Origin: a virus
Length of the DNA: 36,597 bases
Virus record (IMG/VR): IMGVR_UViG_3300027747_000716
Span: 1-36,597 of that record
Direction: 5' to 3' (one strand)
Under the pieces are notes generated by a model. That model had not been told where the DNA came from, ran no database searches, and saw only the letters and a program-made list of their open reading frames with translations. Shown here one piece after another: positions 12,663 to 27,355 of the stretch. Position numbers and translations under genes: made by a program. Position 1 is the stretch's first letter. Each line of letters opens with the position of its first letter.

Positions 12663-13564
12663 GCGTCGTTCGCACCACGGAACTAGCCGAGGTCTCGGGC
12701 TCGCGGAAGTTTGGCGAGCCGCCAGTCTATAAGCGGCAGTGGGTGGTCGAGGTTGACGACCCGGCGCAGTCTACCACCGACATCAGCAACGGCCCCGGAG
12801 TGACGTTCCTCGACCCGCACCCGGACGCCACCTACTGCCGTGCGTTCAACGTCAGCGTGGCCAACTACAGCGGCAGCCGCTGGCACTACCTTGTCACTTG
12901 GGACTACGAAGTTCCAAAGCTCTCGCAGGAGCAGCTGGACGCAAATCCCTTAAATCGCACCGACATCTGGAAGTTCACCACAACGGGCATGGCGGTGCCG
13001 GCCCTGTACTACTACTACGGCACTGGCAACAGCGACCGCCGTGCCCTGACAAACTCTGCCGGCGACATCCTTGAAGGTGCCATGACCGACCTGTCTGTGC
13101 TTCAGGCGTCGATCAGCGGCAACCGCCAGACGTTCGACTACAACCTAGCGGCCACCGTCACGAACTGCGTCAACGACTCGCCCTATCTCGGCGGTGCGGC
13201 GTACACATGGAAGTGCAGCGGAATCAGCGGGCAGCCTGCCGTTGAGGTGGTAAACGAAGTCGAGATCCGCTACTGGCAAGTCGAAGTCACGCTGGAATAC
13301 AACCCGATTGGGTGGCCACTGCTGCTGCCAAACGTCGGGTGGAACTACGTTTCGGGCGGACAGAAGAAGCGCGTGTGGGTGTATTACGACCCAGGCAGCG
13401 GGCAGCCTTTGGAACAGGTGGCCGCCAGCAACCCGCAGCCGCTGCTCTCAAACGGTGCTCTCGACACGGCGAGCCCCGGCGAATCCAACCCGCCGATGCT
13501 TCTGACTCGGCGCGTTCACAAGGCGATCAACTTCCAACAATATTTCGGCACCCCACCAACGTAG
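12659..13564 (+). CDS. Probable distal tail protein, unrecognised family
   Basis: A 301-residue protein starting ATGA over the tape-measure stop. It is rich in tryptophan, tyrosine and short beta strands, with segments such as RQWVVEVDD, WHYLVTWDYEVP and an RRVHKAINFQQYFG end. Long-tailed phages normally place the distal tail protein here, right after the tape measure, and the size fits. No Dit or baseplate motif was recognised, so the function is inferred from order only. It may instead be a baseplate hub or another tail-tip protein. Confidence 0.55.
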   Translation: MSVVRTTELAEVSGSRKFGEPPVYKRQWVVEVDDPAQSTTDISNGPGVTFLDPHPDATYCRAFNVSVANYSGSRWHYLVTWDYEVPKLSQEQLDANPLNRTDIWKFTTTGMAVPALYYYYGTGNSDRRALTNSAGDILEGAMTDLSVLQASISGNRQTFDYNLAATVTNCVNDSPYLGGAAYTWKCSGISGQPAVEVVNEVEIRYWQVEVTLEYNPIGWPLLLPNVGWNYVSGGQKKRVWVYYDPGSGQPLEQVAASNPQPLLSNGALDTASPGESNPPMLLTRRVHKAINFQQYFGTPPT

Positions 13565-21763: not shown

Positions 21764-22082
21764 TCCCGACTGCGATCTCCCGATGTTCGCCGCTGCTCGA
21801 GCACCGGCGCAGCAGCATAGCCGGACATCGATGCAGGCGGCCGACTCGCTTGACGCGAAGGCGCTGAACGCTCTCCAGCGGAAGGTGCTCGCATGGCTGG
21901 CTGAGAACGGGCCGGCGACGGATGAGGAGATGCAGGAAGGGCTCGGGATGAACCCGAGCACGCAGCGGCCACGGCGGATTGAACTGGCGAAGCGGGGATT
22001 GGTGGTGGAGGCCGGCGTGCGGATGACGAAGGCGAAGAGGGCGGCGGTGGTTTGGCAAGCAACGCAAGGAGCACATAAGTGA
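21747..22082 (+). CDS. Winged-helix protein
   Basis: A 111-residue protein with a strong AAGGAGG site 7 bases before ATG 21747. The folded part, about residues 40-92, reads ALNALQRKVLAWLAENGPATDEEMQEGLGM, then RPRRIELAKRGLVVEAG, the layout of a winged-helix DNA-binding domain. The N-terminal 30 residues look like a flexible arm, and the C-terminus is basic and aromatic. It precedes the HNH-helicase gene, and its stop overlaps that gene's GTG start. A role in replication control is plausible but unproven. Confidence 0.62.
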   Translation: MGTFLDPDCDLPMFAAARAPAQQHSRTSMQAADSLDAKALNALQRKVLAWLAENGPATDEEMQEGLGMNPSTQRPRRIELAKRGLVVEAGVRMTKAKRAAVVWQATQGAHK

Positions 22083-23827
22083 GGCTCTTCACAAACAAAC
22101 AAAAACGAGCAGTTGAGTTGGTGACAGGCCAAGCCGGTCAAGGCGATCACATCATTCCCTACAGCAAAGGAGGACAGACGAGCGTGGAAAACTGCCAGTT
22201 GATTTCAGGTGAGACTAACTCCAGGAAAGGCTCTTTCTTCTTTAAGCCTCGCCGCTGGCAGGAGGAGTTCTTTCGTCAGTGGGTTGCGCGGACAATCAAT
22301 ACATTCTTGCTGATTGTCATTCCTGGAGGCGGCAAAACAATGGCCGCCCTTGAGGCTGCGCGTCGATGGATGGCAGCAGGATCAGACCGTCGCGTCATCG
22401 TTGTTGTGCCAACGGACAACCTTCGAGAGCAGTGGCAAGAAGAGGCTGTGAAGTTTGGCATTCAACTCCAGACCAAGGAATTCGGCACGAACTTTAAGCA
22501 CGGCTTTCAAGGCGGCGTTGTTTCTTACAGCCTCGTTGCCAGCCAGCCGTTGGTGTTTCGCAAACTGTGCTCTGTAGCGCCGACGATGGTGATCTTTGAT
22601 GAGATTCACCACTGCGGCGAGGAGGCTAGTTTTGGCCGCGGAGTCGGCCAGGCCTTTGAACTCGCGGCTGAGAGACTGCTGCTATCTGGCACAGCATGGA
22701 GGAGCGACGGGACCGCGATCCCGTGGGTTCAATACGATGGCAACGGATTTGCCGTAGCCGATTACTCGTACGACTACCCGCACGCACTTACCGACGACGT
22801 TGTCCGGTTTCTGGTTTTTGACTACTCGCGCGGAACTATTACGCATGACCTGACTGGAGACAGTCAAACTCTGTCCAGCGAAAGCACAGAGGACGACGCC
22901 GCCCGACTGCTACGAAGGCTGCTTGACGCTCGCGGCGAGTTTGTCCGCGAGCAGATACGACAGGCTCACCAAAGGCTACTGGACGTGCGCGCATCTTTCC
23001 CCGACGCCGGGGCTCTGGCTGCCTGCATTGACCAGACGCACGCTGCCATGGTGGCAAATGTGATCCGAGAGGTAACTGGTTGCGAGCCAAGCGTTATTGT
23101 TAGCGACGACAAAGTTGAGAACGATACTGTCCGGTCGTTTCGTGACAGCAAGAAGGAGTGGATCGTAGCGGTTCGCAAGGTAAGCGAAGGCACAGACATC
23201 AAGCGGCTGCAAGTTCTCTGCTACTTAACGAACACAACTGCGGAGCTGTTTTTTCGGCAACTTGTCGGCCGCGTTTCCCGTTATCGAGGCAATGAGGACC
23301 GCGAAGCGTATGTCTATCTGCCCGCCGATCCTCGCTTAATTGCCTGCGCCCAGAACATCGAAAACGCACAGGTGCAGGCGATAAAGAACCAGCGAGATGC
23401 TGATGAGGTCGAGCGGGCTCCGCTGGATCGCCAGACCGGGTCGCTGTTTGATTCTTTCTCAACGGCCCACGACGGGACCGACCTCGTCATGATCGGAAGC
23501 GAGGCTGTGTCAGAGGATGTAGCAAGGCAAATCGCGCAGATCGCAGAGGCCGAGGCAATCCCGATGCAGAAGGTGCTGGCCGTCATGCAGCGGCTTGGCG
23601 TTGGTCGCCAGCAGGCGAGCCCGCAGCCAGTGGCCGTCCGCAGCAAAGAAGAGGTCATGGATGAACTTCGGAAGAAGTGCAATCAGAAGGCTTTTCATTT
23701 GTCTCGGCTTGCCAAGTGCAAGCCAGAGGAAATCAACGGAAGGTTTAAGCGGCACGACGAGATGACAGAGGATCAATTGCGCAGCAAGTTGAAGGTGCTG
23801 CTCGCGGAGATAGCCAAGTATGCATGA
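22079..23827 (+). CDS. HNH nuclease-SF2 helicase fusion protein
   Basis: A 582-residue protein combining two modules. Residues 20-50 form an HNH-type core, GDHIIPYSKGG (D23, H24), SVENCQL (N38) and GETNSRKG (N47, K50), without the usual preceding cysteine pair. Residues 57-420 form a superfamily 2 helicase: Walker A IPGGGKT (81-87), DEIHH (174-178), LSGTAWRSDG (203-211), VSEGTDIKRL (368-377) and QLVGRVSRYRG (394-404). The C-terminal third is charged and helical. The architecture suggests DNA translocation coupled to cutting, in replication, recombination or defence. The GTG 22079 start overlaps the previous stop. Confidence 0.8.
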   Translation: MRLFTNKQKRAVELVTGQAGQGDHIIPYSKGGQTSVENCQLISGETNSRKGSFFFKPRRWQEEFFRQWVARTINTFLLIVIPGGGKTMAALEAARRWMAAGSDRRVIVVVPTDNLREQWQEEAVKFGIQLQTKEFGTNFKHGFQGGVVSYSLVASQPLVFRKLCSVAPTMVIFDEIHHCGEEASFGRGVGQAFELAAERLLLSGTAWRSDGTAIPWVQYDGNGFAVADYSYDYPHALTDDVVRFLVFDYSRGTITHDLTGDSQTLSSESTEDDAARLLRRLLDARGEFVREQIRQAHQRLLDVRASFPDAGALAACIDQTHAAMVANVIREVTGCEPSVIVSDDKVENDTVRSFRDSKKEWIVAVRKVSEGTDIKRLQVLCYLTNTTAELFFRQLVGRVSRYRGNEDREAYVYLPADPRLIACAQNIENAQVQAIKNQRDADEVERAPLDRQTGSLFDSFSTAHDGTDLVMIGSEAVSEDVARQIAQIAEAEAIPMQKVLAVMQRLGVGRQQASPQPVAVRSKEEVMDELRKKCNQKAFHLSRLAKCKPEEINGRFKRHDEMTEDQLRSKLKVLLAEIAKYA

Positions 23828-26298: not shown

Positions 26299-26552
26299 GG
26301 CAAAAGAAACCCGTGACACTAAAACTGATTCTGGCATTTTCTGTCGCGGCGAACGTGGCAGTCGCATATTGCTGGCTTGCCAGCGATGCTACGCATCCGA
26401 CGGTTCCTCGCGCTGTCATTCAGAAAGGCGTCGGGCAGGCGTATTGCCGTCCAGAGAACTCCAACAAAGAAGCAGACTTCACGCTGATGGCAGCGATCAC
26501 TGAAGAGGTTGAGGTGGAGTCGAACCTGTGGCTAACGAGGTGGTGGAGGTGA
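26295..26552 (+). CDS. Small membrane-anchored protein
   Basis: An 85-residue protein starting GTG 26295 with overlap of the previous stop. After a basic start (RQKKPVTL) residues 9-29 form a hydrophobic segment with LKLILAFSVAANVAVAYCWL, so it is a signal anchor with the rest outside or inside the cell. The remaining region is polar and ends in LWLTRWWR. No enzymatic motif is visible. It ends where the intergenic element region begins. Confidence 0.55.
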   Translation: MRQKKPVTLKLILAFSVAANVAVAYCWLASDATHPTVPRAVIQKGVGQAYCRPENSNKEADFTLMAAITEEVEVESNLWLTRWWR

Positions 26553-26573
26553 CTGCCCCAGCAGTGACTTCAC

Positions 26574-26606
26574 CACGCTCCGCTCGCTGCTGAAACGCAC
26601 GAAATG
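26574..26606 (+). pseudogene. Fragment repeating the end of the gene at 27194
   Basis: CACGCTCCGCTCGCTGCTG at 26574-26592 is identical to 27322-27340, and both stretches end in GAAATGA. In the same frame the fragment would encode TLRSLLKRTK before a stop, against TLRSLLERLK in the gene at 27194. No start codon or body for this frame is present here, so it looks like a recombination remnant rather than a gene. Confidence 0.55.
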
Positions 26607-26609
26607 AAC

Positions 26610-26682
26610 CGCCCCACCGCGCGAGGAATCAGCCCTGACAAGGCTGACGGTCGCCACATTAAGCGGCCCTCGCGGTGGGGTG
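26610..26682 (+). ncRNA. Candidate structured RNA with three-way junction
   Basis: The outer stem pairs 26610-26621 with 26671-26682 (12 pairs including one G-U), and continues after a 2-base bulge as AGG (26624-26626) with CCT (26668-26670). Inside lie TCAGCC (26629-26634) with GGCTGA (26642-26647), loop 7 bases, and GTCGC (26650-26654) with GCGGC (26663-26667), loop 8 bases. The ribosome-binding site of the gene at 26701 starts 6 bases later. No terminator T tract follows. An RNA regulator, a cis element of that gene, or a DNA structure such as a replication site would each fit. Confidence 0.45.
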
Positions 26683-26700
26683 CGGCATGGAGGCCGAATG

Positions 26701-26961
26701 ATGCGGTGGTATGAGTTGGTCGCAATGTCCGTGGTGGCGATCGTCGCACTATCAGTGTCGGCAGTCTTCTATCGAAGTGTGTTCCTAGCGACCGCAAGTC
26801 TTGAAAAGTCAATTCGAGGCGTTGAGCAGGCGATCAGGCTCCAGACCGCTCAGCAGTCGTGGCTCGTAGAGCATTACTCTAGGCCTGCGAGACCGCTCTA
26901 CCATTGGCAGAGGCACCGATGCGAGTGGTGTGGGCAGGAGAAACTTGAGGGCGACAAATGA
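26701..26961 (+). CDS. Small membrane protein with CxxC
   Basis: An 86-residue protein. ATG 26701 has the better 7-base spacing from GGAGG at 26689-26693; ATG 26698 is just before it. Residues 6-30 form a transmembrane segment (LVAMSVVAIVALSVSAVFY). The rest is helical with many charged residues and ends with CEWCGQ (74-79), a possible metal or disulphide pair. It lies immediately after the structured element and its translation could depend on it. No family was recognised. Confidence 0.6.
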   Translation: MRWYELVAMSVVAIVALSVSAVFYRSVFLATASLEKSIRGVEQAIRLQTAQQSWLVEHYSRPARPLYHWQRHRCEWCGQEKLEGDK

Positions 26962-27197
26962 ACGACCGAGACACGTTCGCAATCATCCAGCCCGGCGCAG
27001 ACGTGGAGATTGGGCCTGAGCATGATTCACTCTCAGGAACCGTCCTGTGCGTTTCCATACGCGAGAACCGCACTATTCAATATGAGGTCGTGTGGTGGCT
27101 GTCTGGCCGTAATACTGCATGGCTGTCTGAGCATGAGGTTCGACCAAAGAAAGTGTCGGCGAAACACTACATCGGGTTTCACGGAGGCCAACAATGA
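26958..27197 (+). CDS. Small protein with MNDRDTFA head
   Basis: A 79-residue protein whose first eight residues, MNDRDTFA, are the same as those of the next gene, with 22 of 23 bases identical (26958-26980 against 27194-27216). Past that point the protein differs and becomes a beta-rich domain: VEIGPEHDSLSGTVLCVSIR, then YEVVWWLSGRNTAWLSEHEV. It overlaps the preceding gene by 4 bases. It looks like a hybrid made by exchange of the 5' end with the neighbour. Function unknown. Confidence 0.6.
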   Translation: MNDRDTFAIIQPGADVEIGPEHDSLSGTVLCVSIRENRTIQYEVVWWLSGRNTAWLSEHEVRPKKVSAKHYIGFHGGQQ

Positions 27198-27355
27198 ACG
27201 ACCGCGACACGTTCGCCGCAGCGGCGTTGACGGGGTTGCTGGCAAACGGATCAGGGCTTATCGCCGCCAATGGATTAAACCAGTTCAAGTTCGCGTTACC
27301 AGCGAGACACCCTACAGCCGACACGCTCCGCTCGCTGCTGGAGAGGCTGAAATGA
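27194..27355 (+). CDS. Small phage protein of the MNDRDTFAAAAL type
   Basis: A 53-residue frame starting ATG 27194 within the previous stop and ending at TGA 27353-27355, overlapping the next start as ATGA. It opens MNDRDTFAAAALTGLLANG and closes TADTLRSLLERLK, a short protein type common in phages. Its tail is repeated as a fragment at 26574 and its head is shared with the gene at 26958. Its function is unknown. The coupled overlaps on both sides support expression. Confidence 0.62.
   Translation: MNDRDTFAAAALTGLLANGSGLIAANGLNQFKFALPARHPTADTLRSLLERLK

Follow-up and report, generated by a model that had tools for sequence, protein, structure and literature searches.

Bacterial genomes carry several families of small MITE-like palindromes, among them ERIC (RU-1), YPAL (RU-2), NEMIS (Correia) and the Rickettsia palindromic elements (RPE), which are typically about 100-200 bp long, are repeated in the genome, lie between genes or overlap open reading frames, and yield transcripts that fold into long stems (PMC2229807). 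These mobile palindromes have been reported to be co-transcribed, forming stable stems, and to change how stable the neighbouring mRNAs are or how RNase III processes them (PMC2229807). In phage HK022, put is an RNA that brings about antitermination without the help of a protein (PMC11658703). Integron attC sites are imperfect palindromes located beside exchangeable small genes.

Here we analyse an element of about 76 nt in the window, that is, in the whole 36,597-base stretch, which is the record of an environmental phage. Its left end encodes terminase, portal and major head protein, and 22079-23827 encodes a helicase. Like ERIC, YPAL, NEMIS and RPE, the element is a small palindrome, intergenic or ORF-overlapping, whose transcript would fold into a long stem; unlike them, it is a three-way junction and is present not in many copies per genome but once per phage record. 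Because of this low copy number, and because no target-site duplication is seen, it cannot be filed as ERIC, YPAL or NEMIS. It resembles attC in being an imperfect palindrome next to exchangeable small genes, but its aligned copies lack the RYYYAAC/GTTRRRY core ends, form no arrays and have no associated integrase that we could find. The element is a new sequence family among the known small structured or palindromic intergenic elements. Catalogues cover the small structured elements of phages poorly; the present element adds a defined sequence family for which there is a covariance model.

Fold and setting of the element in the window

The first-pass annotation, made from the letters of the window, had described a 12-pair outer stem enclosing two hairpins, and ViennaRNA returned this three-way junction at exactly 26610-26682. 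The features of the locus are as follows.

26536..26607, + strand: end of the upstream gene (..FTTLRSLLKRTK*), without a start codon; resembles the end of gene 27194-27355
26609..26687, + strand: whole palindromic element, the unit of homology with five other phage copies
26610..26621, + strand: 5' arm of the outer stem, CGCCCCACCGCG; 12 pairs with 26671-26682
26624..26626, + strand: AGG, proposed partner of CCT; pairing not kept in L011
26629..26647, + strand: hairpin 1, TCAGCC-CTGACAA-GGCTGA; stem 26629-26634/26642-26647; loop UUCG or UCCG in four other copies
26649..26668, + strand: hairpin 2, GGTCGC-CACATTAA-GCGGCC; stem 26649-26654/26663-26668; loop nearly invariant; U-G to U-A in L017
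26671..26682, + strand: 3' arm of the outer stem, CGCGGTGGGGTG; compensatory A-U to G-C in L035
26689..26693, + strand: Shine-Dalgarno-like GGAGG of the downstream gene, outside the stems; read in the sequence
26701..26961, + strand: downstream small membrane-protein-like gene, 86 aa; start possibly at 26698

The minimum free energy of 26610-26682 is -43.3 kcal/mol on the + strand and -45.2 kcal/mol on the - strand. In the comparison with shuffled controls that the first-pass annotation had suggested, folding is better than in the controls: none of 1000 dinucleotide shuffles was as good (z -4.5 for the + strand and -4.3 for the - strand), and a slightly longer piece around the element gave z -3.3 (+) and -4.6 (-). 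In an 80-nt scan of the GC-rich window, the element ranked fourth on the - strand and below the top 20 on the + strand; its fold is strong, yet not extreme for this genome. It folds about equally well on both strands.

The element ends 6 bases ahead of the GGAGG at 26689-26693, as had been stated. No relatives of the downstream gene were found. The + strand lacks a T run after the element, so that the combination of GC-rich hairpin and T run that marks an intrinsic terminator is absent and the earlier statement that this is not a simple terminator holds. No promoter-like site was seen near the window copy and no tRNA was found. The description of a 73-base stretch without a gene is fair, with the reservation that a 36-codon ORF (26604-26714) crosses the element; tblastn found no relative of this ORF in named phages.

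Rfam covariance models gave no match to the window element at the gathering threshold, and this, together with homologues in five other contigs, upholds the proposal of a structured element outside the described classes. At E<=10, the window copy and the other copies produced chance-level matches only. The best of them, between DUF3800-VI RNA (RF02915) and the - strand of the window copy, scored 12.8 bits at E 3.2, far below the cut-off of 35; the other copies do not match this family, and the hit was treated as chance.

Homologues and the boundaries of the shared unit

A pattern based on the arms of the outer stem, run over 2.9 million viral contigs, hit 23 places, of which four have the full junction beyond the arms; most of the 23 matches are chance stems. 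A second pattern, built from the core, added the copy in L035, and a third, looser one gave no further copies. The core pattern met chance matches only in 84,980 species genomes, blast against named phages and plasmids returned nothing comparable, and 398 genomes of one phylum contained coding matches only. The element has homologues in at least five further contigs of environmental phages, in differing gene contexts, with 87.7-90.8% identity to the window over 73-77 nt (blastn, E down to 2.6e-23); the alignments begin at 26612 and end at 26684-26687. This recurrence extends the single-locus observation beyond the window. The family copies are located at:

window 26612-26680
L011:6097-6166
L017:2629-2694
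L019:5923-5988
L024:5183-5248
L035:4427-4492

There is exactly one copy in each of the six phage records, several of which are fragments; the window contig possibly lacks its right end, where a second copy might lie. Other candidates were discarded. Helicase relatives (L002-L007) have no DNA in common with the window around the element, and a strong fold at L003:13181 lies inside coding sequence. L034, L056, L057 and the genome matches L036-L040 are chance hits in which the stems are absent, L047, L048, L050 and L051 are noise, and L159 and L160 are coding matches. A faecal phage record (L157) matches over 22 nt in a sequence that lacks the junction, and a Streptomyces phage match (L158) shares solely the UUCG hairpin.

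Outside about 26609-26687, the window and the other copies display no similarity. Homology stops at the ends of the palindrome, and therefore the palindrome itself is the unit shared with the window. The contig containing L011 (G001) belongs to the closest well-mapped relative, which is syntenic with the window phage and has 89% identity to it in TerL and 83% in portal. Its element is found at 13288, some 1.5 kb ahead of the terminase genes, not at the position matching 26609 in the window. A further 27 records with related TerL genes do not have the element. (The TerL gene of G001, L052:15252-15600, matches window TerL in two pieces in different frames, and looks frameshifted in the contig.)

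The five non-window copies share a block of about 155 nt, consisting of ACACGCCGCATGAAGCGCAAC..GTATATGA.., the palindrome and then CACTCTTGAAATCAGAGAGGGAC, ahead of the next start codon, with the right side altered in L017 and L024; the conserved part upstream of the palindrome is missing from the window. Common descent of this block in five of the six copies reduces the known independent placements to two. L010 matches L019 exactly in the left 31 nt and keeps the right boundary, with a small gene in between, and L138 has a similar arrangement. Because the same boundaries enclose a small gene in these contigs, the 155-nt block occupies a slot of small-gene exchange. Another small gene fills the slot in L010 and L138, which are accordingly not empty sites, and no target-site duplication is visible; nor was a recognised mobility gene seen with the element. 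The block is 86% identical between L011 and L035 (adjacent gene 72%) and 87% identical between L011 and L017 (neighbouring gene 75%); judged by these identities, the element is more conserved than the neighbouring genes.

A site acting at the level of DNA, such as a signal for recombination, replication or packaging in the form of a palindrome or an extruded single strand (attC-like, origin-like or cos/pac-like), would agree with the equal folding of both strands and with the location in a region where small genes swap in one slot. Most relatives lack the element, however, and hence replication and packaging can proceed without it; in the window, about 10 kb separate it from the terminase end, and a contig start about 555 nt ahead of the TerL domain, common to many relatives, points to a genome end there. 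Arrays and attC-type core ends are missing as well. We regard a DNA-level site as unlikely, and the suggestion of an origin or recombination element in the first-pass annotation found no positive support.

Two side observations concern the other contigs. In L010:3988-4239, L138:299-560 and L019:5890-6060, small genes are swapped between the short boundaries ACACGCCGCA and AATCAGAGAGGGAC, and several of these genes end in LLERx. Just after a 68-aa gene, L035 and L011 have an intergenic hairpin, GGTTTATCG..CGATAAACC, which recurs near a gene start in L070 and is possibly an operator.

RNA, DNA or coding sequence

Across the copies, the stems are paired in 97.7% of cells. In three copies the hairpin-1 loop reads cUUCGg, and in a fourth it reads cUCCGg; in the remaining copies its length differs and the stem persists. 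UUCG and UCCG loops are of the UNCG tetraloop type found in RNA. Their occurrence in four copies suggests that the element is an RNA. Of the compensatory changes that had been sought in homologues, a double change was found in just one of 26 pairs (A-U to G-C in L035), although the stems are intact, and covariation was matched by 106 of 500 shuffles. Covariation this thin, together with equal folding of both strands, keeps the RNA assignment from being firm. The active strand is unsettled: the U-G to U-A change in L017 favours the + strand, whereas pairing would survive the change of GG to AA in L011 on the - strand alone. The AGG/CCT extension of the outer stem, also proposed in the first-pass annotation, is not conserved, L011 having AAA opposite CCT. 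Variable columns differ between paired and unpaired positions with p = 0.04, a value from columns counted by hand to which we give little weight.

The one compensatory pair is weaker evidence than it appears, because it is synonymous in a frame that is open through the window copy and L035. In that frame, L035 has a complete ORF, MKRNSHQSVYEPSPPPPREESASGLTVATLSGPRGGARHS*, and the window shares PPREESA..LTVATLSGPRGG with it, as would be expected if the element were a short protein-coding gene or part of one, with palindromic codons mimicking an RNA fold. However, the longer loop of L011 puts it out of frame, a shift ahead of the palindrome affects L017, L019 and L024, L017 has ATC for ATG, neither Pfam nor PHROG gives a match, and the other frame has no tblastn relative. 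The coding reading is quite improbable, and a conserved protein encoded by the element appears unlikely.

A free-standing small RNA acting in trans would be compatible with the compact, stable fold and with TATGAT, a -10-like sequence located about 11-12 nt upstream in L017, L019 and L024. The TATGAT bases double as codons of the MKRN frame, though; L035 has an altered form of the motif, the window copy lacks it, and no terminator follows the element. A trans-acting RNA is very unlikely. A -10 box at GTATATGAT in the upstream block was likewise rejected, the same bases being codons of MKRNxHSSVY and the motif not being kept in all copies.

As the main rival to a transferable palindrome we consider a dedicated leader RNA, which would form on the 5' side of accessory or late messengers and control their translation or elongation, for example as a put-like antiterminator. 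All six copies are in sense orientation between co-directional small accessory genes, five of the six lie 20-35 nt ahead of a start codon, and the element precedes packaging genes in L011, L017 and L024. The UNCG loops and the conserved hairpin-2 loop are also what a leader RNA might be expected to have. With a single base between its two hairpins, the window copy resembles HK022 put, which has two neighbouring hairpins one base apart in a phage transcript; in the phage element the hairpins are closed by the 12-pair outer stem and no promoter lies just upstream in the window. The likeness is one of shape alone. That phages can use protein-free RNA antitermination is known from HK022 (PMC11658703). 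Against a leader RNA, the next gene downstream is different in every copy, the window copy has no promoter-like site nearby, the upstream conserved block does not occur in the window, and covariation is too thin. We consider it possible but rather doubtful. Regulation of the gene at 26701 in particular is no more than conjecture. With downstream genes that differ and the palindrome as all that is shared with the window, a transferable element fits as well as a riboregulator.

A proposed transferable palindromic cassette

Our tentative preference is for a small, horizontally transferred palindromic cassette that would be folded in the polycistronic messenger and act in cis on mRNA stability or processing. 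Horizontal transfer is suggested by patchy presence, differing map positions and unrelated flanks. In tailed phages, a cassette of about 76 nt would settle between small accessory genes that run in the same direction and presumably be co-transcribed with them. The messenger copy, with + strand RNA as the putative active form, would fold into the three-way junction and serve as a stable barrier or processing site, which may set the stability of the neighbouring cistrons. We propose this effect in cis because of the precedent set by the mobile palindromes of bacteria (PMC2229807). The likeliest route between phages would be recombinational exchange in the gene-swapping region.

A bolder reading, which we hold to be doubtful, is that the three-way junction, UNCG-capped hairpin and conserved second loop define a new class of cis-acting phage RNA, which phages would hand on to one another as a finished regulatory module and insert ahead of varying accessory or late genes. 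The function of the element is inferred. Should it act on the messenger, the accessory regions of phages would be places where regulatory RNA modules are traded as well as genes; should it be selfish, it would be a palindromic element small enough for phage genomes to carry one copy at a time.

Other features of the window are recorded here as observations. The gene end just before the element is of the LLERx type (..TTLRSLLKRTK*) and has no start codon; a direct repeat links 26574-26607 and 27322-27355 (82%). Within 26299-26607, the frame-0 ORF stops at AGG-TGA-C (26547-26553) and the next frame runs on to ..FTTLRSLLKRTK* without a start of its own; here lies either a site of +1 frameshifting or a gene that is broken. 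Downstream of the element, two adjacent small genes both begin with MNDRDTF (26950-26980 and 27186-27216, 87% DNA identity), a partial gene duplication. The N-terminus of the helicase at 22079-23827 (residues about 14-57) matches HNH endonuclease families, which suggests an HNH-helicase fusion. Like the window, many contigs of related phages (L058, L060, L061, L063, L065, L066, L067 and others) start some 540-610 nt ahead of the TerL domain, and positions 1-52 of the window look like a physical genome end (cos site) just ahead of the small terminase gene.
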